Below, one piece after another: positions 463 to 49,267 of a DNA stretch of 64,000 nt. Both the position numbers and the translations under genes were made by a program. The notes beneath the pieces are model-generated. The model saw only the letters and a program-made list of their open reading frames with translations. It was not told the origin of the DNA and ran no database searches. Positions within the stretch are counted from its first letter, which is position 1, and the number at the start of each line of letters is the position of its first letter. The stretch comes from Conoideocrella luteorostrata (Eukaryota > Ascomycota > Sordariomycetes > Hypocreales > Clavicipitaceae): NCBI GenBank assembly GCA_032433595.1, contig JASWJB010000049.1, forward strand, positions 62,001-126,000. The letters are read 5' to 3'.

Positions 463-1523
463 TGCGGATCACAAGCTAGGGCCCCAAAAAATGCAATTTC
501 AGTGAATAAAGATGAAATGCAATTTATTTTATGTATGGAGGGGGCTGATGCAGTTTCTTTTGCCCGCGGTGAAAATGCGTCGACGTCCTGTATGGCTCAA
601 CATCCAAGCCCTTCATAAAGTCTTTGGGCATCTATCTATCTAACTACCCAACACACCCGTGTCATGACCACTCAATGATGGGACTGATAAAGCACAATTA
701 CTCCGAAATGACTCGGGGGCGGGAACGCTACCGTGTTACACGTATATGCCGCGAACCCTTGCGAAGGCTCCCGCATTTTAGGAATACTGATTCAGCGAGA
801 TAGTGACAAAGCGGGCGGCAATTAACGATAACTGGCCGCTGGGTTATTTTGGGGTTCAATATTGTAATTTTGTGTTACTATGGGGGTGATGCCTCATTAT
901 TGCATCTCTCGTATCGGGTCATATGGTGCTGGAACCTCGTATCATTTTGGGGGCTGCATTAACCATGGCACTGATAAGGAGTCCAGCTCGGTTAGGAATC
1001 GATGTTGGCACAACGTACATACATACTGGGGCTATATTATGCCGTGATATAAGTACTGATTTATATATTGAGTTCCACAGAGTGGAGTGCAAGCTCAGAA
1101 CCCCCCCTCCCGCAGGGATGCTCGGGAGTCACAGTGCCGGATTGGGAGCCTTCCGGGCTCCCAAGAGATAATAGACATTATTAGTGCTGAATCGTGCAGA
1201 ATTTCTCCGAAACGTGCTGAAGATCGGACCGACATACCCCTTGCTCAGTTCCGTCTTTGTGAGACACTAGAAATTTGCATGCTATTAGCTGTCAGACCGA
1301 CTGGAGTTGCCGACATATGGGATCACACCATATAACAACAGGAGTGGTGCGGGTCTATCGGGAGGGAGAAAAAAAAAAGCGATCCTATATAGAGTAGTGC
1401 GCTTTGAGATTCTAGCGATCCAAATCATACTGAATTTGGACAATTCCTAATTCATCTGCCCCCTCCAATACCGATATACTTCTACCTGACACTCTCTTTT
1501 CCCCTCTGCCACTGAAATAAGAA
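463..1523. other. Intergenic region between P450 and cyclase
   Basis: No convincing gene. This 1.06-kb divergent spacer is the likely bidirectional promoter. It holds a perfect 9-bp hairpin (1142-1150 pairing with 1156-1164, loop TTCCG). Short ORFs at 923-1335 look like chance. Confidence 0.5.
1386..1392 (+). promoter_or_regulatory. Possible TATA box of the cyclase gene
   Basis: TATATAG lies about 130 nt before the ATG of the cyclase, with a pyrimidine-rich leader between. Position and sequence suit a fungal core promoter, but such motifs are common in AT-rich DNA. Confidence 0.3.
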
Positions 1524-3578
1524 ATGGCGAAGGCTGTAGCGATCAATGGGTTCAAAGAGCATGAGTGCGACCCAGAGCTTGTATCGCAGGCCCGGACGAG
1601 CTTGACGCGGGCATCGGATTTTGGTCTCAACACGATCAAAGAAGATGGTCACTGGAACGGTGAACTGCGATCAAATGCAACTATTACCGCAGAGCACGTC
1701 TTCTTCTACCAATCACTTGGGGTTCCCATCCCGGATAGTGCCGCCTATCGTCACTACCTCTTATCCCACCAGAACGAGGATGGATCATGGGGAATTGCCC
1801 CTTTCTATCCCGGCGATGTCTCTACCAGCGCTGAGGCATATCTTGCCCTCAAGATCCTCGGCGTCTCTACGGAATCTCCAGAAATGAGCAAAGCTAGGGG
1901 GTTTATTAGGAGAGTCGGAGGAATTGCCAAAGTACGGATTTTCACGCGCATCTTCTTTGCCCAGTTTGGGCTATTTCCCTGGGACTATGTGCCGCAGCTA
2001 CCGGCAGAATTCATTTTCATGCCGGCGTCGACACCCATGAACGTCTACCGACTTTCTTCTTGGGCACGAGCTACATTGATCCCCTTGTTTGTCATTCGTC
2101 ATCATGAGAGCACATACGCCTTGCCCAATGGCTTGTCTAAGAACAATGACTACTTGGACGAGCTGTGGCTCGATCCCGGGCAAAAAACGGTGCCGTATAG
2201 CAAGCCAATCTTTGAGACACCAGGATTGGATATTTTATCCATAGCCATCACTTGCGTCGACAACGCTTTGTACTTTTTTGGCGGTCTGAGGAAGCAGCCT
2301 CTGAGACGCCTTGCTCTGAACCGCTGCATCAAGTGGATTCTTGAGCGCCAGGAGCCCGAGGGCGACTGGGCAGGCATTGTCCCTCCCATGCATGCAGGCA
2401 TTCAAGCGCTGCTTTTGCAGGGCTACAAAATCGACGATCCTCGAATCCAGCGAGGCATCGCAGCCCTTGAGCGGTTCACTTGGGAAGATGACAGGGGGAA
2501 GCGGCTCCAGTCATGCGTGTCTCCAGTATGGGACACAATCCTCATGTCTCGCGGTCTTTGCGAGGCTGGCGCTGACAAAACTGATCACCGCATCCTCCGA
2601 TCTATCCGCTGGATCAAGTCGCGCCAACTGACCGGCCCGGAGGGTGATTGGAGAGTCTACAGCCCTGCTCTTCAGTCAGGTGGGTTCAGTTTTGAGTACA
2701 ATAACTCCTGGTACCCAGATGTTGATGACACGGCCGCTGCGATTCTCACTCTGCTTAACCAGAATTTCACCTCTGTTGACTGTGTTACCATTTCCAGAGC
2801 TGTGAAGTGGATTGGCGGTATGCAGAACAAAGATGGCGGTTGGGGCGCGTTTGATCTGAACAACGACAAATTGTGGTTGAACAAGATTCCCTTTAGTGAT
2901 TTGAACGCTCTGTGTGATCCGTCATCGGAAGACGTGACGGGACGCGTTCTGGAAGCTTATGGGCTCATACTAAAGGCAGCAGAAAACACTTATGTGGACC
3001 CCGAAATCACCCAAATTATATCTACAACGTCCGAAAGGGCCTTGTTCTATCTGGCAAGCACTCAAGAGATCACCGGCAGCTGGTATGGGCGCTGGGGATC
3101 CAATTACCTCTACGGCACGAGTCATGCTCTATGCGGGCTCCAGTACTTTTCGCAGGGAAACGAAATGGTGCAAAACATGATGAGCTCCGCAACGGAGTGG
3201 ATCAAAGAGGTCCAAAATAGCGATGGCGGCTTCGGAGAGGAACTCATGTCCTATAAAAAACCATCTCTAGCCGGACGGGGAGTATCGACACCTTCTCAGA
3301 CCGCGTGGGGACTCATGGCTCTTCTTACGACGTGTGACCCTGCCGACGACTCAGTCGTGGCTGCAGTTTCTTACCTTGTGTCGACTCAAGCTGAGGAGGG
3401 GGCAGGGGTGGGATGGTCGTGGCCGGAGGAGAGGTACACAGGAACGGGGTTCCCTAATCATTTCTACATTGGGTACACATTGTACCGTCATTACTTTCCT
3501 ATGATGGCTTTGGGCAGATATGTCCGTCTCGCGCAGCAGGCCTTGGACAAAAGGGCAAAGATTGCTGGGGATTACTAA
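1524..3578 (+). CDS. Squalene-hopene cyclase-type triterpene cyclase
   Basis: An intronless 684-residue protein of normal length for class II bacterial-type squalene-hopene cyclases. The catalytic acid motif DVDDTA is at residues 399-404. QW-type repeats are spread along the chain (EDGSWG near 85, GDWAGI near 280, DGGWGAFD about 435, GSWYGRWGSNYLYGT about 520, SDGGFGEE about 565). The C-terminal signatures LAGRGVSTPSQTAWG and GTGFPNHFYIGY are intact. These enzymes fold squalene (or oxidosqualene) on a membrane and cyclise it by protonation from the Asp motif. The absence of introns and the resemblance to bacterial enzymes suggest ancient transfer from bacteria, as for other fungal hopene cyclases. 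The divergent P450 next door makes a small triterpenoid cluster plausible. No glycosyl- or acyltransferase is visible nearby. The start is the first in-frame ATG, in a good context (GAAATGGCG). Confidence 0.92.
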   Translation: MAKAVAINGFKEHECDPELVSQARTSLTRASDFGLNTIKEDGHWNGELRSNATITAEHVFFYQSLGVPIPDSAAYRHYLLSHQNEDGSWGIAPFYPGDVSTSAEAYLALKILGVSTESPEMSKARGFIRRVGGIAKVRIFTRIFFAQFGLFPWDYVPQLPAEFIFMPASTPMNVYRLSSWARATLIPLFVIRHHESTYALPNGLSKNNDYLDELWLDPGQKTVPYSKPIFETPGLDILSIAITCVDNALYFFGGLRKQPLRRLALNRCIKWILERQEPEGDWAGIVPPMHAGIQALLLQGYKIDDPRIQRGIAALERFTWEDDRGKRLQSCVSPVWDTILMSRGLCEAGADKTDHRILRSIRWIKSRQLTGPEGDWRVYSPALQSGGFSFEYNNSWYPDVDDTAAAILTLLNQNFTSVDCVTISRAVKWIGGMQNKDGGWGAFDLNNDKLWLNKIPFSDLNALCDPSSEDVTGRVLEAYGLILKAAENTYVDPEITQIISTTSERALFYLASTQEITGSWYGRWGSNYLYGTSHALCGLQYFSQGNEMVQNMMSSATEWIKEVQNSDGGFGEELMSYKKPSLAGRGVSTPSQTAWGLMALLTTCDPADDSVVAAVSYLVSTQAEEGAGVGWSWPEERYTGTGFPNHFYIGYTLYRHYFPMMALGRYVRLAQQALDKRAKIAGDY

Positions 3579-11004: not shown

Positions 11005-12096
11005 TTAAGAGAAGTTCATCGTACCGCCGGAGACGGATGTGCCGCTGAACACGTTTTTCCCGGTGATTGGGCCATTGAAGTGAAAGCCACCGCCGCCACC
11101 ACTTTTCTCTTTCGATTCCTGACTGGCTGATGTCATTTTTTGACCGTGTTCATGGTGGTCAGAATGCTGACGGTGCGGAGATATTCGTGCCAATATTGCC
11201 TTGGCATATGCAGCAGCCATTGCCGCTGCATATGGCTGCCATATCTTCTCTTTATGCCCATCTCCATAGTCACAGACGCCGCGTATGACACCGACCGGGA
11301 TGCGGTTCATTGTCCCTGCTGCCTCCATTTCCAGGCCAATGACATTGTAAGTGTTTCTTAGCTCGTTTCTAACGTGGGCGTTTTTCACCACTTTGTCGCC
11401 AGAGCCAATTGATCCATACCACACCCGAGTCCGCTGGCCCGCCGTGCGTGGCTCTCTGTGAACAAGACTCTCGACGCCATGCTCATCAAATTCGTAAAGG
11501 TCATCTCGGTCTTGCCCCGGGTCAAGGAAAGTGCCCGCGCGATGCGCTGAATTCTTCATACGCTCATAGTGTGGGAGAAAACAATTCGCGTCGTTTGGAT
11601 ACTCTAGTTTAATGCTTCCAATGGCTGACCGAATGATGGGCTCCGTAGCGGCCAGCGCATGTCCGAGTCGCAGGGGTTGGAACCCATCCATGGTTTCTTT
11701 GCCCAAGTCGTAGGCCAATATTCCTGGATTTTGTCCCTCAGGAAGTGCCACGAGAACATCGCCGAGTCGTATGTCTTGCGGATTTGGAGAGGAAAAATGA
11801 GGAAGGCCAGCCGCGACGCCAACTAAAAGCCCAAACCACAGCGAGGGAAAGCATTTCTTAACTTGGCTAGCCAACGCTCCCGCTGAGCCGCTGCCATATT
11901 CCTGCCCGGAGGGTAGCGTGGCAATGACAACATTGTGGCAGTCAATCTCGCCTGCAATGTAAATATAGTCGTCTCCTCGGCTGCAAGGAAACGTCCCTGG
12001 GTGGCGTTCATCAAGCATGTATGAAGCAGCTTTTGCTTCAATCTCTAATGGAGCAATCCAGGCCACGGTGTAGACGTCAGCGTTTAGCTCTGGCAT
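11005..12096 (-). CDS. Nucleoside-phosphorylase-fold (PNP_UDP) protein with C-terminal amyloid-like motif
   Basis: An intronless 363-residue protein. Residues 8-300 match the fungal PNP/uridine phosphorylase fold: YTVAWIAPLEIEA at the start, HNVVIATLPSG about 54-64, GLLVGVAAGLP about 89-99, DIRLGDVLVA about 108-117, EMEAAG at 256-261 (ribose-binding Glu) and RGVCDYGDGHK at 272-282 (catalytic Asp). In fungi this fold is usually the N-terminal effector domain fused to an NB-ARC/TPR protein. Here it stands alone. A polar linker and Gly run (331-337) lead to a final 26-residue segment containing FNGPITGKNVFSG. That segment closely resembles the N-terminus of the NLR transcribed divergently 463 bp away (12560). 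The inference is that this is the cell-death or NAD/nucleoside-cleaving effector switched by amyloid templating from the NLR. The enzymatic substrate is unknown. The start is the first ATG of the domain. Confidence 0.9.
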   Translation of the reverse strand: MPELNADVYTVAWIAPLEIEAKAASYMLDERHPGTFPCSRGDDYIYIAGEIDCHNVVIATLPSGQEYGSGSAGALASQVKKCFPSLWFGLLVGVAAGLPHFSSPNPQDIRLGDVLVALPEGQNPGILAYDLGKETMDGFQPLRLGHALAATEPIIRSAIGSIKLEYPNDANCFLPHYERMKNSAHRAGTFLDPGQDRDDLYEFDEHGVESLVHREPRTAGQRTRVWYGSIGSGDKVVKNAHVRNELRNTYNVIGLEMEAAGTMNRIPVGVIRGVCDYGDGHKEKIWQPYAAAMAAAYAKAILARISPHRQHSDHHEHGQKMTSASQESKEKSGGGGGFHFNGPITGKNVFSGTSVSGGTMNFS

Positions 12097-12559
12097 GATG
12101 TCGCGGTGCGGATTTCAACAAAATTAGCATGCACAAGTCGCTATGGGGTCGCGTTGACTGTGGGCTGCAAAATGTGCCATATGTCTTGGGCTGTGGTAGG
12201 ATGCGTTAAATAGCTGGCGCTCGACACAACGAGGCTGCCACTACTCCGTACACGGATTATGGTGTGCTTCCAGCGCGCAAGGAGAACAAGATACTAGTTG
12301 ACTTCCATTTGTATGGTAAATTAGAGATATACCATGTACCCGAGGTTTTGGGCTTCTCTTTGGGCCGAAACAATCCTGGCTTCGAGACTCCGCTTACGCC
12401 TTGCCGCGGTCACGTTGTTCCAACCGGCTGCTTCTCGCATGCATTTTATGTTGCAGTCGACGTGTATTCCAGTCTTGTGATTTTCTGAGTGTCGCAATTG
12501 AGAATCCCTTCTCGCGCGAACTTTGGGAGACATACAGCGTCTTGGCACCTTGAGCTGCG
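12097..12559. promoter_or_regulatory. Shared divergent promoter of the PNP/NLR pair
   Basis: 463 bp separate the two start codons, with no ORF of note. A TACTCCGTA motif lies at 12242-12250. A single bidirectional promoter would co-express effector and receptor, as in known fungal NLR/effector pairs. No clear TATA box was seen on either side. Confidence 0.45.
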
Positions 12560-15491
12560 ATGGCCGGAGCCTCTTTCAACGAGTCTGTCAGCGGCCGTAA
12601 CGTCGTCGCCGGTCTACACGTTGCAGATGGTGGAAACTTCACAGCAAACTTTAGCAATGTTCTGAACCAGCCATTCACACCTTCCGGGCCACTCCACGTC
12701 ATCCCGTTTCCGAGAAACGAGGATTTTATACGGCGCTCGGACGTCGTCTCGGCGCTCGACTCACTTTTGTCATCTAACGGCGAATATTGTAGTGCTGCTC
12801 TGTGGGGTTTCGGTGGGTCTGGGTAAGTGGACGCGATGGAAGTCGGAACTTAAAACGATTCCTTCTCGGCGCTAACTGTTGGAAGAAAGACGCAGATTGC
12901 GCTTCAATATGCCTACCGTCGATGCGCGCCGTCTTGTTCGGTCTTCTGGGTGCATGCCGACAGTGAGATAACATTTCTTCTTGATTACAAAACGATAGCA
13001 AGAAAATTATGCCTTGCCGGCGAACTTGAGGGCAAAGACTTGATGTTGGCCGTCCGTGACCGCATCGAGGCACTGCCACGCTGGGTTTTTGTTGTCGATA
13101 ATACGGACGACTTGAAACTGTTTGGCGTATCAAGGCCCGCGGACTCTCCCTCAAGCCTGCTTGACTTTGTACCCCGAGGGTTTGGTGGCACAGTGCTATG
13201 GACAAGTCGCGATGAGCGAATAGCCGGCACCCTTGTGGGTGGACGCCGGGGCCTTCACGTACAAAACATGACAGTTGAAGAAGCGATTGACTTGCTACGC
13301 TCAAACATGAACAAAACCTTCACCGATGTGGAACATGACGATGCCCAAAACCTTGTTCAGGAGCTTCACTTACTACCCCTGCTCATCTCGCAAGCAGGGG
13401 CGTACATGCGAAGAACAACTACACCAATTAGGGAGTACCGATCACAGCTGCTGTCGGACAAAGAAAGATGGCACCTTATCAGTAACACAGAGTTTGACAG
13501 ACACCGAAGGGCAGATGTGTCAAACAACTTACTACACAGTTTGGCTCTGTCTATAAACCGAGTTCGGCATGAACATGAAGAAGCGTACAAGACCATAGGT
13601 GTCCTTGCGTACCTTGACAATCAACATATCCCGGAAGAAGTGATTAAAGCGGCCGCCAGCTTCCACAAGGAGGACGGACAGATACGATGCAGTGAGCAGT
13701 CAGTGGACACTCTTCATCGGCTCATGGACTTATCATTTATTACTACTCAGAATGTTAATGGTGTTGAGCGTGAATTTGAAATGCACAAGCTTGTTCAGGA
13801 AGCCGCGCGATTTGGGCACCAAGACTCTTCCCTTGGGAAACCAGGAGATGGGAAATACTTCGCTTCTGTCGCTATTACCGTGATATTGGATCTGTTTCCA
13901 GAATACACACCGAATAGTAGGCACCTCATGAAGCAATGCGAAAAATTCTTGCCCCATGCAGTAAAGGTAGCCAATTTGGCCGAATTTTGTGGGATGGAAT
14001 ACGAAATAATCCAGATTCTTGCTCGAGTGTCCAGTTACCTATTAGATCGGGGAAGTTGGACGCAAAGTGAATCAATAAATAAGAGGTTGCTAAGTTTAAG
14101 GTCGACGACATTAGGTAAAAAACACCCAGACACGCTTGCTTCTATGAACGACTTGGCATACAATATTTTTATCCAAGGATATTATTCTGAAGCGGAAGTG
14201 GCTGTGAATAACACTCTGGAGCTGACACGCGAAGTACTCGGCGAGGAGAATTTGGGTACGATTGATACTATAAGTTTACTTGCAAGGGTGCATGACGTAC
14301 AAGGCAGATACAAAGAGGCTGAGGAGATTAGAATAAAGGTCCTAGAGCTTCAAAGAGAGGTTCTCGGCGAGAAGCATCCAGACACAATTATAGCTATGGG
14401 CAGTCTCGCCAGCACATACCACATGCAAGGCCTGTACAAGGAAGCAGAAAAGGTTGAAATAAAGGTCCTAGAGCTTCGAAGAGAGGTTCTTGGCGAGAAG
14501 CATCCAGACACAGTTACAGCTATGGGCAATCTCGCCAGTACATGTCATATGCAAGGCCGGTACAAGGAAGCGGAACAGGTTGAAATAAAGGTCCTAGAGC
14601 TTCAAAGAGAGGTTCTCGGCGAGAAGCATCCACACACGATTATAGCTATGGGCAGTCTCGCCAAAACATACCACATGCAAGGCCGGTACAAGGAAGCGGA
14701 ACAGGTTGAAATAAAAGTCCTAGAGCTTCAAAGAGAGGTTCTCGGTGAGAAGCATCCAGACACAGTTACAGCTATGGGCAGTCTCGCCAGAACATACCAC
14801 ATGCAAGGCCGGTACAAGGAAGCGGAACAGGTTGAAATAAAGGTCCTAGAGCTTCAAAGAGAGGTTCTCGTCGAGAAGCATCCAGAAACGATTACATCTA
14901 TGGGCAATCTCGCCTGCACATACCACATGCAAGGTCGGTACAAGGAAGCGGAACAGATTAAAATAAAGGTCCTAGAGCTTCGAAGAGAGGTTCTCGGCGA
15001 GAAGCATCCACACACGATTATATCTATGGGCAATCTCGCCAGAACATACCACATGCAAGGCCTATACAAGAAAGCAGAACAGGTTGAAATAAAGGTCCTA
15101 AAGCTTCGAAGAGAGGTTCTCGGCAAGAAGCATCCAGACACAATTAAAGCTATGGGCAATCTCGCCAGAACATACCACATGCAAGGCCGGTACAAGGAAG
15201 CGAAACGGATTAAAATAAAGGTCCTAGAGCTTCGAAGAGAGGATCTCGGCGAGAAGCATCCACACACGATTACAGCTATAGGCAATCTCGCTAAAAACAT
15301 ACCACATGCAAGGCCGGTACAAGGAAGCGGAACAGATTAAAATAGAGGCCCTAGAGCTTCGAAGAGAGGATCTCGGCGAGAAGCATCCACACAAAATTAA
15401 AGCTATAGAGAATCTATTACTTACTTATAACTATCGCCTCAAATTATGGAATTCTTGGAAGATTAGCCGGGAGATTAAATCTCCGCTGTGA
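12560..15491 (+). CDS. NLR protein: amyloid-like motif, NB-ARC, TPR repeats (frameshifted near C-terminus)
   Basis: Exon 1 is 12560-12822. A 63-nt intron (GTAAGT donor, GCTAAC branch, AG) ends at 12885. Exon 2 starts at 12886 and splices precisely through the P-loop, giving GFGGSGKT at residues 83-90. Residues 5-32 hold a Gly/Asn motif (FNESVSGRNVVAG) matching the C-terminus of the adjacent PNP protein. NB-ARC landmarks: kinase-2 VFVVDNTDD about 155-163, a TVLWTSRDER sensor about 190-199, LPLLISQAGAYM about 251-262 and an MHxLVQ element at 387-392. From about residue 563, 42-residue kinesin-light-chain-like TPRs run to the end. One extra A in the run 15293-15297 shifts frame: the open frame then stops at 15338-15340 (905 aa), whereas the other frame continues TPR sequence to 15491 (about 955 aa). 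The extra A could be a real truncation, an allele or a sequencing error. Such proteins sense non-self and oligomerise through NB-ARC. Confidence 0.88.
14312..15440 (+). repeat. Near-identical 126-bp TPR-coding tandem repeats
   Basis: Units start at 14312, 14438, 14564, 14690, 14816, 14942, 15068, 15194 and about 15321, exactly 126 bp apart except for the 1-nt insertion. Each encodes 42 residues of the pattern KEAEQVEIKVLEL, LGEKHP, MGxLAxTYHMQGRY. Differences concentrate at a few codons (for example DTVTAM, HTIIAM and ETITSM; Q/R after LEL). Two more divergent units precede them. High similarity at DNA level points to recent duplication or gene conversion, typical of fungal NLR ligand-binding repeats that evolve quickly. 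The array is also a likely place for assembly collapse. Confidence 0.92.
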
Positions 15492-24731: not shown

Positions 24732-25445
24732 CTAGTGTGAAACATGAACGCGGAAAAAATGTACTTCGCTCGCATTGTCATCCTGATTATAGTTGCCAGC
24801 CTTGAAGTAGCTCTTTGGCCCATCGAGACGACCCGTGTCAAACTCCTTAAAGCCCCCTCCGTTGATGCTAAGAGACAACTTGTTCTTTTCATACCGGATC
24901 TCATACGTGAAACGCGAGTTGGGTTCTACGTGACCCACAGCAGACCGTTTAGAGGTACAGGTGCGGCAGGTGGCCACCCCGAAAGTCAGATCACCTTCAG
25001 GGTTCACGTAGAGCAGAGCAACGGGCTTGTGCGAGACGGATGCGTCCATATGAATCTGGCCGACGCAAATGTCCCCCTTGCTCTTGATGACCTGGACGTC
25101 GCCGAAGAGGCGGTTGGTGCGGGCGTGGGGATCCCAGCTGCGCGGCGAGTCCTCGCGCAGCTCACTGCGGCAGTGCTTGCTGTTTGGCGTGGACACGCAT
25201 TCGGACCTTTTGGGCACCTTCATGACCATGGAGCCGTCTTTGCTGCTGGTGGAGAACCACTTGTCCTGGTAACCGTCACATCCGACGAGCTTGGAGCTGG
25301 AGATTTGGCGGGGCTTGCCGTCGTCGCCGACGGGTTCTTGGAGGACCCATTTCGTCAAGTCAAAGTTGCCCCCGGGAGCGCAGTCGGGGTCCAAAGCCAG
25401 GGCCAGAGCGGCGCCGGCCACCATGAGTAAAGCTGTGATGCGCAT
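24732..25445 (-). CDS. Secreted alginate lyase-type polysaccharide lyase (PL7-like)
   Basis: Single exon, 237 residues. Residues 1-17 form a signal peptide (MRITALLMVAGAALALA). The mature part begins with PGGNFDLTKWVLQEP and carries all three signature motifs of the alginate_lyase2 jelly-roll fold: RSELRE at 93-98, QIH at 130-132 and YFKAGNYNQ at 213-221. The His of QIH and the Tyr of the last motif are the catalytic pair of the family, and the Arg residues bind uronates. Length is typical for a single-domain secreted enzyme. It should cleave by beta-elimination, but substrate (alginate, glucuronan or another polyuronate) cannot be told from sequence; terrestrial fungi with this fold often act on glucuronans. 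The large plus-strand ORF over the same DNA is a shadow. Confidence 0.9.
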   Translation of the reverse strand: MRITALLMVAGAALALALDPDCAPGGNFDLTKWVLQEPVGDDGKPRQISSSKLVGCDGYQDKWFSTSSKDGSMVMKVPKRSECVSTPNSKHCRSELREDSPRSWDPHARTNRLFGDVQVIKSKGDICVGQIHMDASVSHKPVALLYVNPEGDLTFGVATCRTCTSKRSAVGHVEPNSRFTYEIRYEKNKLSLSINGGGFKEFDTGRLDGPKSYFKAGNYNQDDNASEVHFFRVHVSH

Positions 25446-25695
25446 GTTGAAAAGCAGAAAGCAGTGGCAGGAGGTGCGATGAACCTAGTATAGAGATGAC
25501 ATGGAAAAGACGTTGCTGAGGTGCAAAGTGGAAGTGAGAGCCGTAAAGCACCTACTTATACTCCGTACTAACCTACTAATTTAGCAATTGAGTCGGCGCA
25601 TGGCTGCGGCCCCCACGCTCGGATCTTAGCGTCAGCGGTCATAATCCGGACGATCGGCCGGATGAAGGGTGGCATTCTCTTGATTTAGCTAGGAC

Positions 25696-32097: not shown

Positions 32098-32928
32098 TCA
32101 TGCGGTGGCGCCAACATTCAGCGTCATTCCCAATCTATCAGGCCGTTGCAGCCCTTGACCCTCCCAGCGCTCCATTCCCAACATAAACAACTCAGTCTGT
32201 TTGTCTCTTCTGTACATGGGATATGTCTTGCCACGCTTCTCACGACTCTCCAAAGTCTCAGTCAACCTGGCCTCTCCGTCTTTGTCCAACATGACATCCT
32301 CTTCGAAAACATAGGACCTGGTCTCGCAATTATGCCAGCCCGTGCCAGGATATTGATACGAGTCCTCCCAATCGTCAGTGAAATAATGCAAGAAGCCACC
32401 GTGAGTAACAAGGACGACTTGGGCATCTACATCACCGGCCTTGATCATCTCCCGAATTTTCTGACGCAGGAGGATTCGAGTGTCACGGGCGCGTGCCTCG
32501 ATAGCGCTACTTTGCGGGCTGTAGCGGCTCTCCAGGGTTTTGACGTTCCAACCATCCTTAACGAGGGATAGATCGACTGGCCAGTTATTCTCTGCTGCCA
32601 TGCTGCGGAGTGGGTGTGGGTCAGAGCCTGTATCGCATGGGTCGTCTGAGAGCTCCTGGGCATCTGGGAGGGCGAGAATTTGAGGCGAGCATTTGCTGCT
32701 AGATGCGAGCGCCGGGCCGAATGTCAGATATGCGGTATGAAGTGTTCGACGTAGTGGAGAAGCTGTGACGAGTGAGATGTTCGATTGATCTTTGAATGAG
32801 GAGTTCAGCAGAGTTCTGGCCTGCTCTTCTCCCAGAGGAGTGAGCATGGGGTCTCGAAGGGAATAGACCCCGCCCCCCACGTTGTGAAATCCTTGGGCAT
32901 GGCGAACACAATGAAAGATTGGTGGCAT
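32098..32928 (-). CDS. Histidine phosphatase superfamily protein (phosphoglycerate mutase-like)
   Basis: Single exon, 276 residues, no signal peptide. The N-terminal RHA motif (CVRHAQGFHN, residues 7-16) supplies the phospho-accepting His10. SPLRRT at 58-62 provides the second Arg of the phosphate pocket. The acidic proton donor is likely the Glu of AQEL (about 92). VTHGGFLHYF at 174-183 supplies the second catalytic His176. This layout is that of cytosolic fungal PGAM-like phosphatases related to yeast Pmu1. The substrate is unknown. The first ATG directly precedes the catalytic motif, so the start is secure. It is transcribed away from the MULE element. Confidence 0.88.
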   Translation of the reverse strand: MPPIFHCVRHAQGFHNVGGGVYSLRDPMLTPLGEEQARTLLNSSFKDQSNISLVTASPLRRTLHTAYLTFGPALASSSKCSPQILALPDAQELSDDPCDTGSDPHPLRSMAAENNWPVDLSLVKDGWNVKTLESRYSPQSSAIEARARDTRILLRQKIREMIKAGDVDAQVVLVTHGGFLHYFTDDWEDSYQYPGTGWHNCETRSYVFEEDVMLDKDGEARLTETLESREKRGKTYPMYRRDKQTELFMLGMERWEGQGLQRPDRLGMTLNVGATA

Positions 32929-33532
32929 ATTGAGCCGAGCAGAAGGACAGCGATACTATCGAAGGATGTACTCTATAAACAAAGAAGTTTCGGAACAAGG
33001 GGTAGTTGGGTTGTCTGGTAGTTAAGTGGTGAACTAGGCGGCAGAGAGATGGAGCCCTCATGGGGTGAGGGGATATATAATTATTATAAGTCTCACGTGC
33101 AGTATCAATGAACAACTTTTTTTACGAATGGATCCTTATTGATCATCTTATAGCTTTCGAATATTAGCTCCGAAATGGCACCAGAGACTCCCAGCTTGAA
33201 ATCCGCGGCGGGTGCCCACTTGGAAAATATTAGACATTTTCGACCGAACAGGAATTAGCTCGCTACCAAGAAAGCATTAGAAATCACTGGAGGGACAGCA
33301 GGAAAGAAGCCCGTCGTAATTGACAAAGCACATCTTGAATGAAGGCTATTATTCATCATTGAAGAATTTGAAACCGAGTGCGGCTGTACGCTAGTGCCTT
33401 GGCTGCCAATTTAGGACTAGTTACATTGTTGGCCCGAAATCTAACTTCAACCCGTCGCCCAATGATGGTGGCGCATTCTTTTGCCCTCTAATATGAACTC
33501 CTCCGTACGGGCAGCCAAACATCCAGACCGCA

Positions 33533-34472: not shown

Positions 34473-34752
34473 TGCCCACTCCGTACGGAACCTAAGTGTA
34501 AACTATTACACGCCACCGCTCCACATCTCGCGGATTTGCCCTGCGGTATGATCTCGGATGTGACGAAATGTTACAAATCATGCCGTTCTCGGAACTTTCC
34601 AAGCTGACCTACACGCCTTGATCCCCTTTGAATCATTGAGATTGCGTAGTTTGCGTTATAAGGACGTATGTCTTGTAAATGGCCATGCAACCGCCTCATA
34701 CTGGCACCTATTTCATCCCCTGGATACTACGCCGGACTTTCAATAACGCCTT

Positions 34753-36432
34753 ATGGGTGTCTCCTCGTGCATCAAAGGGCTAATGCCTAAGCACCTGGGC
34801 TCCAAGCAGCAATGCCCGGCTGCCGGCACTCCTTCAGCATGGGCAGATGAGATCAGGACCATTGATACTGCTGTCGAGGAACCATTACAAGCTCGAATCG
34901 AGCGCCTCGGCCGGGAACGCCCCAAGGCTTTCACCACCATCTGGAGCGAAATCTGCTTTGTTTTCAGTATTACCATGTCTCAATTCCTAACCGAATACTT
35001 TGTATCGGGTTTCACCGTCATCCTACCGATTTTGATCAGAGAGGTTGATATCCCACAGGCGTCGAGCGTGTGGCCAGCTACCGCATTTTCTCTCGTAATT
35101 GCAAGCACCCTACTTGTATTTGGCCGCCTGGGTGATATGTGGGGAGGCTACCTCGTCTTCTTGTGGGGCCTAGCGTGGCTTCTCATCTGGAGTATCATCG
35201 CAGGATTCAGCATCAATCCGCTTATGCTAGACTTCTGCCGGGCTTTCCAAGGGTTGGGAGCTGCTGCTTTTCTCCCCACCGGAGTTATGCTCATGGGTTC
35301 TCTCTATCGCCCGGGGCCGCGGAAAAATCTCGTCTTCGCCATATATGGCACTTCTGCAGTCGTCGGGTTCTTCGGAGGGATCGTCATTGCGGGTGTCGTC
35401 GGCCAATTTATGCGCTGGGGGTTTTATTTCTGGATCGGTGGCATTCTTACTGCTCTCACGCTAATAGCCTCGATCTTTTCTATCCCATACTCTCGGCCGG
35501 GAAACGAGGGTACAAGTAACCTGAAGATGGACTATCTCGGTGCTTTCACCATCATCTGCGGTCTCACGCTCACCATCTTTGCCATCACTCAATCTGCACA
35601 TGCCCCCTCGGGGTGGCAAACACCATATATCCCCGTCTGCTTCTCTTTCGGCATATTGTCTCTCTTCTCAGCCGTCTACATAGAAAAATGTGTCGCCTCT
35701 TATCCCCTCTTGCCCTCCACATTCTTCGCAACCCCGTCTATGACACCTCTACTCTGTGCTCTTTTGCTCCTCTACGGCACCTGGGGTATTTTCTCTGTCT
35801 ACGGAACCCTGTACTTCCAAAATATTATGTCCGCTAGCCCTCTCCAAGTCGTCGCATGGTATGTCCCCCTTGGTGTAGCGGGGCTACTTCTTAGCGTACT
35901 CGAAGGCTTTATCCTTCACTTAGTCCCCGGGAGGGTTCTCTTGATAATCTCTGGCTTAGGGGCAGTGGGATCACAGCTTCTTCTCGCCCTCATCCCGCTT
36001 GAAGGTGGGAGTTACTGGGCATGGGTTTTCCCTGCTACAATCCTCAGCACCATCGGCATCGACCTCTCCACCATTTTAATGACCGTTTATGTAACGAACA
36101 CGGTCCCAACCAGTCAGCAGGGGCTCGCTGGAGGCGTTGTAAACTCCGTGTTGCAGCTAGGTGTGGCTCTTTGTCTTGGCCTAACAGATATTATTCAGTC
36201 AGCAACAGTTGAGGAAGTGGGATTAGGAAAGAGCTACAAGAACACGTTCTGGTTCGGTGTAGCTGCGGGATCAGTGAGTTTTCTAGTATTGGCAGTTTGG
36301 GGGAGGGTACCCCAGGCGAAGAGTGATTTGACAGCAGATGAGAAGAAGGAATTGATACGAGAGGCAAATGAGGAGGAGCGCAGAGCCTCTACTGGACTTC
36401 AAAATTCAGCAGTCGAACAACATGGTTGTTAA
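34753..36432 (+). CDS. MFS transporter, DHA2/Atr1-like drug or toxicant exporter
   Basis: Single exon, 559 residues. A soluble N-terminal tail of about 75 residues is followed by about 13-14 hydrophobic segments, starting at QFLTEYFVSGFTVILPIL. The TM2-TM3 loop carries GRLGDMWGGY, a variant of MFS motif A. FCRAFQGLGAAAFLPTGVML corresponds to the conserved TM4-TM5 region, and GTSAVVGFFGGIVIAGV to motif C. The C-terminus is short, charged and cytosolic. This pattern fits the 14-helix proton antiporters related to yeast Atr1/Azr1 and fungal aminotriazole or boron resistance proteins, located in the plasma membrane. The substrate is unknown. The nearby MULE inverted repeat lies within its promoter region. 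The downstream neighbour is more than 1.7 kb away, so no cluster partner is obvious. Confidence 0.9.
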   Translation: MGVSSCIKGLMPKHLGSKQQCPAAGTPSAWADEIRTIDTAVEEPLQARIERLGRERPKAFTTIWSEICFVFSITMSQFLTEYFVSGFTVILPILIREVDIPQASSVWPATAFSLVIASTLLVFGRLGDMWGGYLVFLWGLAWLLIWSIIAGFSINPLMLDFCRAFQGLGAAAFLPTGVMLMGSLYRPGPRKNLVFAIYGTSAVVGFFGGIVIAGVVGQFMRWGFYFWIGGILTALTLIASIFSIPYSRPGNEGTSNLKMDYLGAFTIICGLTLTIFAITQSAHAPSGWQTPYIPVCFSFGILSLFSAVYIEKCVASYPLLPSTFFATPSMTPLLCALLLLYGTWGIFSVYGTLYFQNIMSASPLQVVAWYVPLGVAGLLLSVLEGFILHLVPGRVLLIISGLGAVGSQLLLALIPLEGGSYWAWVFPATILSTIGIDLSTILMTVYVTNTVPTSQQGLAGGVVNSVLQLGVALCLGLTDIIQSATVEEVGLGKSYKNTFWFGVAAGSVSFLVLAVWGRVPQAKSDLTADEKKELIREANEEERRASTGLQNSAVEQHGC

Positions 36433-46912: not shown

Positions 46913-48235
46913 GGCTTCGAATTGGCGATTTGCGTGTAGTTTTATTCAGTAATTTTCATCTATTTTATCACGTTGGGAGATCTGGGCGATTTATATGGTT
47001 CCAAATTCGCATTCTACCGGCGTGAGCATGTCATCCGTCGGGTGGCGATCCGGGCGTCTCGGCTCCGCTGCCGACAACCCCATCGCTTGGTCGTGCGCCG
47101 ACAGTGAAAACAGGACATCGATATCGGAGGTATCCCATTAAATAGCGACATTAAACCGTAATCGGCCAGATTGATAATGCTTGTGGAGCCACATCCTATC
47201 AGCTAAAAGGTTCACAGGACGGCTTCGCCGCCGAGAGGCTGACACTACCCGGCGGTGGGCTTGAATTGTCGCAAGAAATCAACGTATCTATTAACCAACT
47301 TGACGAAATCGACGTGTTTACACAATTTCTCTCTTATCTCTTACAAATAGAACTGTCAGGTCATTGCGATTTCAACACCTGTTACCTGGAGGATTACAGC
47401 ATCCTACAGATCAGAGGCCGTATCATTGAGGATAATGGGAGATTCAATGATCACATTGGCCCTGTAAGTCATGGTAGCACAAACAATGACGCTAAAGACT
47501 TCCTTGGGAGATGCATTGAGACAAGCCGCGTACTTGACTGGCTCCTGCCTTGCACATACACGCTTCTCCCTCTAACCGCCACTACATGTCGCTCGCAGCT
47601 TGCACCCACTACCCCGTAGTGCGCGACAAATTCTCGCAGCAGAAGATCTTTCTGTTTCATTGTTGTAGGATATGTCGTGTGGTGGTTTGTCAGAAGCTAT
47701 TAATGCAAGCAGTTTATAGAAGCGATGGCGCCAGGTGCGATGATAATAATTCGGTAATTTGACAGTTTGATGTTCAGGCTAGCATATTTTTAGCTATAGT
47801 TGGTCTGCAGGAGTAACATCGGATCCATCAGTTTCTGCATCCGTTATCTAATCATGTATTTTCAGGCTGACACTACGGAGTACAGCCAGCAATAAGCGCT
47901 ACTCCGTTCAAAGGTCCCGCTAGGCTAGACTGCGCCATAAAGTCCGCCGCACGGAACGAGCTTTTGAGGGTCAGCCTGGACGTAAACACTCCGCAACTGA
48001 CAGCGGACCGTGGGTTTTTGGCTTGTCCCAAGGGGGGCAACGCCGCAGCAAAGCAATGGCGCTGGTAAAAAGCCTGGGGCACAGTGCAGTCCCTTCTTTT
48101 TTTTTGGTCAAATTTATTTGTTTGCCACCTTCGCGTAGTGCGTACTAGGCCAATATCCTAATTGTCTATTCATGTATTCACATTAACGATTTTGCTGTGT
48201 CTTGCACTCCTACGAACGGTGGTGGTTCGACAACC
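46913..48235. other. Intergenic spacer
   Basis: A CATATAAAT at 46989-46998 (minus sense) about 80 nt before the malate synthase ATG may be its TATA box. A TACGGAGTA lies at 47874. No gene recognised; the 117-aa plus ORF at 47266-47619 is unsupported. Confidence 0.4.
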
Positions 48236-49267
48236 ATGACGCCGCCACACTTTGATGTCACTCCCCAAAAGGAGAGGGGTGTCTTCAACTTTCTTTCGCG
48301 CCAATTGTTCTTCACTCCGGAGCCAGTGACCGGCGTGTCGCTTGCGGGCAAAACGGCTATTGTCACCGGCTCCAACGCTGGCGTTGGTCTCGAGGTTAGC
48401 CGACAGCTTCTCGATCTTGGCCTCAGCAAACTCATCATGGCTGTCCGCAATGAAGACAAAGGCCACGCTGCGTCTGCTAATCTACCCAAGGGACGAGATG
48501 GCAAAGCCACCATAGAGGTTTGGAAACTGGGCCTGGCTTCGTACGATTCTATCGTTGCTTTCGCACAGAGGGCCGCCACTCTTGAACGCATGGATATTGC
48601 CGTCATGAACGCGGGTCTGGTCATGGCCAAGACTGCACTTAACGAGAGCACCGGCCACGACGAAACAATCCAGGTCAATTATATATCCACAGCCCTGCTG
48701 ACTGTGCTCCTCCTCCCCGTGGCGAAGGCCAAGCGACCCGCACAGGGAGGCATTGCATCGCGCATTACCCTAACGTCTTCTGATGTTGCTACTTGGACCC
48801 CCTTCAAGGAAAAAACCAAGAACCCGCTTCTTCCGGCGTTTGATACGCCTGGTGGTAAACCAACTGATCGAATGATGGTTTCCAAGCTCCTCGGCCAGTT
48901 CTTCCTGGCGGAGCTAGCAAAGCGAGTTCCCCCGTCAGCTGTCGTCATTAACTACGCCACGCCGGGCATGGTGCACGATTCGCAATTCAATCGCGAGATT
49001 GACGGTACCTTTGGTGGCAAGATTGCGTTTGTTTTCATACGGCGGATAGGGTACACTTCTCTGGTTGCTGCTCGACACATCACTGATGCTATTGTGAAGC
49101 ACGGTGAAGAGTCGCACGGCCAATACCTATCAACCCAGAAGTTAAAACCGTAGGTCTCCGTTCCTCACGAGGGTGGTTTGGTAGAAAACACAATGCTGAC
49201 ACAAGTGGTACGCAGCATGGCACCAATTATTTACTCAGATGTGGGCAAGGAGATATCTGAACGGTAG
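48236..49267 (+). pseudogene. SDR oxidoreductase, probably inactive (active-site Tyr lost, premature stop)
   Basis: Exon 1 is 48236-49149 and exon 2 starts at 49216 (66-nt intron, GTAGGT donor). The Rossmann motif TGSNAGVG is at residues 44-51, NAG at 125-127 and a Ser in TLTSSD at about 181. At the catalytic YxxxK position the sequence is M213-MVS-K217, so the Tyr is replaced by Met. After splicing, the tail continues MAPIIYSDVGKEISER and then meets TAG at 49265-49267. The same frame resumes with WKETMAELSFAKAEDIVSEV, as in intact relatives of the retinol-dehydrogenase-like fungal SDRs, and ends at a TGA near 49335. The predicted product is 321 aa, about 23 residues short. Loss of both Tyr and tail indicates decay, though a stable truncated protein is possible. 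The open frame before 48236 begins with a GTG and is not used. Confidence 0.75.

Follow-up and report, generated by a model that had tools for sequence, protein, structure and literature searches.

In a stretch of 64,000 nucleotides from Conoideocrella luteorostrata, a Clavicipitaceae fungus (contig 49, positions 62001-126000; hereafter, the window), two divergent genes encode a protein of the purine nucleoside phosphorylase (PNP)/nucleosidase fold and a NOD-like receptor (NLR) of the NB-ARC/TPR type, and the two products have in common a motif of ∼26 residues, located at the very C terminus of the PNP protein and at residues 6-32 of the NLR. We consider it probable that the two genes form a cell-fate (immune or incompatibility) module, in which the NLR would switch the PNP protein on by amyloid templating. 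The initial annotation of this locus had proposed such a split PNP/NLR module, and the divergent arrangement, with matched motifs at the effector C terminus and the NLR N terminus, supports that proposal. The source genome comprises 46.4 Mb in 620 contigs, and C. luteorostrata infects scale insects.

A motif shared by the two protein ends

The motif has the rough form [VI]F-x-G-P-[IV]-x-G-x-N-V-x-[AS]-G-x(4,6)-G-x(2,5)-N-x-x-F-S, and the two ends share a pattern as the initial annotation had written it: a loosened regular expression, run in six frames of the window, had exactly two matches, which are precisely the PNP tail and the NLR head. Aligned locally, the two 40-residue ends gave a best score of 55, a value that none of 20,000 paired shuffles reached (maximum, 54), and in a repeat with somewhat shorter ends, 1 of 1,000 shuffles reached the pair's score; this direct pairwise similarity is significant, not overwhelming. 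The evidence from an independent profile and from homologues is stronger. A hidden Markov model (HMM) of 24 PNP tails, from which the window's own was left out, gave 16.8 bits for the first 40 NLR residues, against a best of 14.6 bits for 20,000 shuffled NLR heads (19,228 of them reported); when the NLR head of the window was scored within a set of 122 short sequences, the value was 15.8 bits. Moreover, a search of the whole genome in six frames with the consensus tail returned three matches, namely the window PNP tail (E 2.4e-6), an NLR on contig C172 (E 0.0018), and the window NLR (E 0.10). The sharing of the motif between the window PNP and NLR is confirmed as real and beyond chance. A recent DNA duplication is ruled out because the codons differ, as had been noted at the outset: among 13 core residues, six are identical, with the same codon used in only two of the six, and 23 of the 39 nucleotides are identical.

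The features of the pair are as follows.

11005..12096, minus strand: PNP/nucleosidase-fold effector gene, single exon, 363 residues plus stop (open reading frame and Pfam scan, homologues, fold match)
11008..11082, minus strand: PNP C-terminal signalling motif, residues 339-363, HFNGPITGKNVFSGTSVSGGTMNFS (28 proteins, the window's included, end exactly in the motif)
11083..11166, minus strand: PNP linker, residues 311-338 (low model confidence, pLDDT <50)
12097..12559, no strand: intergenic region, 463 bp between the divergent starts (from coordinates; presumed shared promoter region)
12560..12822, plus strand: NLR exon 1, carrying the motif, the linker, and the beginning of the P-loop (splice model)
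12575..12655, plus strand: NLR N-terminal signalling motif, residues 6-32, FNESVSGRNVVAGLHVADGGNFTANFS (regular expression, HMM, genome search, alignment)
12823..12885, plus strand: GT-AG intron, 63 bp, within the P-loop GFGGSG/KT (same splice in public protein P0121)
12886..15340, plus strand: NLR exon 2, with NB-ARC domain and TPR repeats (Pfam scan, splice model)
15306..15491, plus strand: open reading frame in another frame, prolonging the TPR repeat sequence past the annotated stop (reading of the frame)

The two genes and their products

The PNP reading frame terminates in its motif directly before the stop codon. Its product is a member of the PNP/UDP phosphorylase superfamily, with 18.9 bits against PNP_UDP_1, just below the curated Pfam cut-off of 25.1, and with 1,225 homologues at E ≤1e-3 in a search of ∼5.8 billion proteins; its likely catalytic positions are conserved, and Asp276 and Glu258 are among its conserved residues. 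Of two AlphaFold models, the first was poor (pLDDT 56) and the second better (pLDDT 63, pTM 0.70), with the tail appearing in the latter as a beta hairpin of low confidence and otherwise unresolved. Structure comparison of the model matched the predicted fold to methylthioadenosine/S-adenosylhomocysteine (MTA/SAH) nucleosidases, and the 50 VIA-align rows listed are made up of MTA/SAH nucleosidases and futalosine hydrolases together with a single uridine phosphorylase; these 50 rows include no immune ATP nucleosidase, which does not exclude such a match. The modelled protein is thus predicted to have a nucleosidase-like fold.

The NLR starts at 12560 and opens with MAGASFNESVSGRNVVAGLHVADGGNFTANFS. 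Its spliced model of 905 residues is letter for letter the public protein QQS21_003652 (P0121) of C. luteorostrata, a "hypothetical protein." In Pfam, TPR_10 scored 336.5 bits, whereas NB-ARC scored 22.4 bits, just below its cut-off of 23.5, in a scan of the exon-2 reading frame without the P-loop, and no NACHT or WD40 model matched the window NLR at E ≤0.01.

The genome contains 133 PNP-like matches, exon fragments included. We chose 20 other PNP genes by frame length and inspected ∼0.6 kb downstream of each: same-strand P-loop-like sequence followed in 19 of them, and the shared motif was found in none of these intervals. The four closest PNP paralogues are each followed by a same-strand NB-ARC frame. 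Judged from such sequence, PNP looks to be usually fused to an NLR in this genome, in agreement with the earlier remark that this fold is normally fused. Among the homologues, two proteins carry the motif at the junction of such a fusion: P0058 consists of a PNP domain followed by TDGKNLNAGTHVSGGALNLTFSNP and by an NB-ARC start like that of the window NLR, and P0028 of a PNP domain followed by VFNGSISGRNVVAGPSASGG and by a different NLR start. A third, P0111, joins PNP and NLR domain types without a clear motif. The existence of PNP-motif-NLR fusions suggests that the two window proteins would work together, and it also feeds the alternative, weighed below, that the motif is a left-over linker.

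The motif among homologues in other species

Counts of PNP homologues rest on the best 120 of the 1,225, the window's own included. The tail is present in 30 of these 120 (profile E ≤1e-3), at the last residue in 28 and internally in two; 24 of the 30 bearers are the set from which the profile was built, and the remaining six are P0001, P0014, P0028, P0056, P0058, and P0091. Named tail bearers include those of Phaeoacremonium, Xylaria, Rosellinia, Nemania, Ustulina, Apiospora, Microdochium, and Fusarium xylarioides, and a diverged tail occurs in Cordyceps javanica. Residues F2, G4, P5, N10, and G14 of the motif are invariant in the 24 tails, of which N10 and a Gly or Ala at position 14, not G4 or P5, had been required by the expression that selected them, and the linker that precedes the motif is variable among tailed PNPs.

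On the receptor side, our survey of heads covered the best 120 of 222 NLR homologues. In a search of 240 full-length proteins with the tail HMM, three NLRs among these 120 passed E 1e-3, all with the match near the N terminus. The same HMM gave 41.0 bits for 40 residues of the C172 NLR head and 7.8-12.8 bits for five more NLR heads from Thelonectria and Ilyonectria. A search of 45-residue regions with the Thelonectria NLR head recovered only itself among 27 candidates.

Further PNP/NLR pairs and motif types in the genome

The genome holds at least five divergent PNP/NLR pairs, one in the window and the others on contigs C109, C140, C251, and C503; five is a lower bound because the pairs were found through likeness of NLR heads, not through a full survey of PNP genes. 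The C109, C140, and C251 pairs have PP-like motifs on both partners, with NSGFQA-type tails and heads and NAGFQA in the C251 tail. The PF17046 scan covered the C109 and C140 tails, which scored 17.9 and 15.1 bits, respectively, both under the cut-off of 23.2, and the C251 tail and the three heads are called PP-like by likeness. Only 0.5-6.8 bits were given to PP-type tails and heads by the PNP-tail profile; a stretch NGPVSG or NGPISG is common to the window-type and PP-type motifs. The C503 pair represents a third motif type, with the PNP tail GNVFGDGARINQGDLGGNTMFGPV on an apparently separate downstream (second) exon and the NLR head FRDSNSIIQGNIQGNVYYN. Heads resembling the latter are, by eye, common among the listed NLR homologues.

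In a matrix of five tails and six heads, within-type scores ranged from 46 to 79 for the window type and the PP type, the C503 tail scored 37 with its own head, and scores between types were ≤29. The motif types are matched within each pair, and the type follows the relatedness of neither the enzymes nor the NB-ARC domains. Indeed, the window NB-ARC is nearest to that of C503 (44%), and the C172 NB-ARC piece is nearest to those of the PP-type receptors (39-40%); the C503 enzyme is nearest to the PP-type enzymes (54-58%), and the window enzyme stands at 27-28% against each of the four others. Since the motif type fits the neighbour and not the relatedness of the other domains, the motif behaves as an exchangeable tag.

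The C172 NLR carries the second head of the window motif type in this genome (C172:88064-88315, minus strand; MNPVQFEGPVSGHNVFAGMHVSDGGAVNMTF). No recognisable PNP gene lies in the 7.7 kb around this head, which is near a contig end, and the nearest PNP match on C172 is ∼54 kb away. This NLR may drive the window PNP from elsewhere, or it may have a partner past the contig end. A long reading frame in the same 7.7-kb piece (515-2287) reads by eye as Argonaute/PIWI-like. At ∼1600-2300 of a segment of contig C361, a PNP-like fragment neighbours an NB-ARC gene in divergent orientation, and the two may be a pair in decay; inspection by eye revealed no motif there.

Relation to known amyloid-signalling motifs

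PNP_UDP effectors with C-terminal amyloid motifs adjoining NLRs were described in 2022 by Wojciechowski et al. (PMC9815663), and the window pair has three of the attributes by which that paper describes PNP_UDP/NLR pairs, namely a PNP_UDP effector, a motif shared by the effector C terminus and, more weakly, the NLR N terminus, and genomic neighbourhood. A PNP_UDP/NLR pair with a shared tag is thus of a kind already known in fungi, and the novelty that the initial annotation had implied for an enzymatic effector of this family falls away, prion behaviour having been shown for one class (PMC9815663). According to the same source, the motif named PUASM has the pattern FxGxGxQxxGxGxF and receptors of the NACHT or NACHT-WD40 type, fibrils are formed by its peptides from either side, and on the effector side the motif behaves as a prion in Podospora. 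Like the window pair, PUASM pairs combine a PNP_UDP effector bearing a ∼24-residue C-terminal motif with an adjacent NLR bearing the motif at its N terminus, and they occur in Pezizomycotina. The PUASM motif tested there starts with VFHG and ends with GNDLSIS (hand-translated by us from the printed primers; PMC9815663), whereas window-type tails mostly start with [VI]F-x-G and mostly end with N-[FLM]-x-F-S. However, the window core is F-x-G-P-I-x-G-x-N-V-x-x-G and the window receptor is NB-ARC/TPR, not NACHT or NACHT-WD40. The PUASM pattern was present in none of the 240 retrieved PNP and NLR proteins, the window pair included, and we reject a PUASM assignment on the grounds of this absence and of the differing receptor type.

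A second PNP-only motif, PF01048_015, is reported in four pairs and is distinct from PUASM (PMC9815663), and PMC12261475 uses the naming "PUASM 1-2." PF01048_015 (PUASM 2), which we compared by description only, resembles the window case in that a PNP_UDP effector is paired with an NLR, and the window motif may well be this motif.

The same 2022 paper notes that an HRAM3-like motif also accompanies PNP_UDP and that the PP and sigma motifs accompany pore-forming and enzymatic effectors alike (PMC9815663). The PP pairs on C109, C140, and C251 resemble the window pair in being divergent PNP/NLR pairs with matched motifs at the effector C terminus and the NLR N terminus, but their motif differs from the window motif in its NSGFQA core. 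Neither window segment nor any of the 24 tails matched the PP model (PF17046, Ses_B), which our Pfam copy contains, at E ≤10, a scan in which the HMMER filters drop most matches above E ∼0.1; unlike the three PP-like pairs of this genome, the window pair is therefore not assigned to PP. No match of these segments and tails to the sigma model (PF17106, NACHT_sigma) was reported, under the same filters and with the presence of that model in our Pfam copy unconfirmed, and none matched HRAM/HET-s in Pfam, a scan that the HRAM2-5 profiles lay outside. The sigma/HRAM-style likeness suggested by the initial annotation thus finds no support in Pfam, whose coverage of HRAM is partial. In the literature on fungal amyloid motifs, as far as our search extended and with supplements outside it, we found no name for the window motif, and we do not claim its absence from print.

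We tentatively raise the possibility that the motif is an amyloid-signalling class of its own, distinct from HRAM, sigma, PP, PUASM, and PUASM 2, and that it serves as a modular address tag by which NB-ARC/TPR receptors are connected with nucleosidase effectors, both in trans (adjacent and non-adjacent NLRs) and in cis (fusions); we regard this as doubtful.

Window surroundings

We scanned 10 of the 29 window frames of at least 160 residues, of which five matched Pfam at E ≤1e-4; no NLR-type neighbour was among the matches. These frames encode a squalene-hopene cyclase (1521-3575, plus strand), an alginate lyase (24735-25484, minus strand), a histidine phosphatase (32101-32955, minus strand), an MFS transporter (34747-36429, plus strand), and a short-chain dehydrogenase (48149-49150, plus strand).

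Proposed mechanism and alternatives

In HET-S/NWD2, a homologous amyloid motif is placed at the effector C terminus and the NLR N terminus, and the genes are adjacent (PMC9815663). Our templating model follows this paradigm and the PUASM work. On this model, (i) the TPR repeats would sense a ligand, upon which the NB-ARC/TPR receptor would oligomerise; (ii) oligomerisation would gather the N-terminal motifs of the NLR into a cross-beta (amyloid) template; (iii) the PNP tail, being of the same motif class, would copy the fold of the template, so that the enzyme would be recruited, clustered, and activated; (iv) the clustered nucleosidase would deplete a purine nucleotide, possibly ATP by analogy with bacterial immune relatives; and (v) this depletion would lead to cell arrest or death. 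HET-S itself differs from the window effector: it is a HeLo protein that forms pores, and its prion domain has two repeats, whereas the window effector is an enzyme bearing one motif. The immune ATP nucleosidases of bacteria (cited in PMC10197012 and PMC12881547) belong to the PNP family and resemble the window PNP as PNP-family immune effectors, but their activation route differs, and they suggest a fungal substrate by analogy only. We infer oligomerisation, amyloid templating, the enzyme activity and its substrate, and cell death from these analogies.

Several observations weigh against this interpretation. Amyloid formation, seeding, and activity are argued here by inference from related systems. 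The window NLR head is a poor bearer of the motif: at 15.8 bits it lies below the heads of C172 (38.5), Thelonectria olida P0122 (35.9), and two Corynascus NLRs (30.4-30.5), and its E value of 0.10 with the consensus tail in its own genome is weak. The common profile that had been foreseen for the two segments holds insofar as the tail HMM scores the NLR head above its best shuffle, and fails insofar as the window NLR stays above E 1e-3 among the 240 full-length proteins. Further, the window PNP tail scores 66 with the C172 NLR head versus 55 with that of its neighbour, and the separation of types is imperfect, since the C109 tail scores 29 with the C503 head (z 3.4; 7 of 1,000 shuffles as high). 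The two halves are seen side by side in one genome, and each is conserved separately in other species. The NLR frame stops at 15340, the TPR array shifting frame near 15300 and its repeats running on to 15491; the public NLR protein ends at the same place, and this break in the last TPR repeats is either a real truncation or an assembly error.

Tail bearers are also scattered on a quick PNP tree of 124 sequences, with 9 changes, at least 4 of them forced by starred branches. The scatter points to repeated gain or loss of the tail, or to tails cut off by gene models. Shuffled labels gave a mean of 26.2 changes, and none of 500 shuffles was as low as 9. In this tree, 53 of the 121 inner branches are open and some end branches are long (P0001 among them); four labels (P0014, P0028, P0056, and P0091) were assigned manually, and P0058 was treated as tail-less, its motif having come to light only later.

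An alternative that keeps the partnership is a non-amyloid contact, such as heterotypic docking, beta-strand pairing, or an NLR oligomer that serves as a scaffold without templated polymerisation. The internal motif of the fusions P0058 and P0028 would suit a scaffold role, as proposed for internal motifs by the 2022 authors (PMC9815663), and the modelled tail is only a low-confidence beta hairpin; however, the length of the motif, its effector-C/NLR-N placement, and the adjacency of the genes are those of the studied amyloid-signalling motifs, and we judge such a contact unlikely. Alternatively, the motif could be a structural linker left from a split PNP-NLR fusion, each half having kept the junction while signalling was lost. 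Such an origin would agree with the junction motifs of P0058 and P0028 and with fusion looking usual in this genome (the 19 of 20 chosen genes and the four closest paralogues), but a mere remnant would not explain why five motif positions are invariant in the 24 tails while the preceding linker varies, why the motif stops at the last residue in 28 proteins, or why its type tracks the partner instead of the relatedness of the NB-ARC or PNP domains, and a simple split would not yield the head-to-head orientation; we find this origin decidedly improbable. Chance similarity of two Gly/Asn-rich termini, which the narrow excess of the pairwise score over its shuffles (55 versus 54 in 20,000; 1 of 1,000 in the second run) might have suggested, is hardly credible and is rejected in view of the independent tail profile, the few genome-wide matches, and the 30-39 bits scored by NLR heads from C172, Thelonectria (P0122), and Corynascus.

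Implications

A module in which the NLR would activate the PNP protein by templating extends the recently described wiring of fungal immune receptors to enzymes, and the proteins in which PNP, motif, and NLR are fused suggest how one-gene and two-gene designs may be connected. With at least five head-to-head PNP/NLR pairs, three motif types, and one orphan NLR head, the C. luteorostrata genome offers a test bed: because the motif type goes with the partner rather than with the family of the NB-ARC domain or of the enzyme, the insulation of parallel death pathways by amyloid motifs becomes testable by cross-seeding. If the window motif were indeed a separate class, three or more PNP/NLR channels, each orthogonal to the others, would run in a single genome, and tags would have been exchanged between lineages of receptors and of enzymes.

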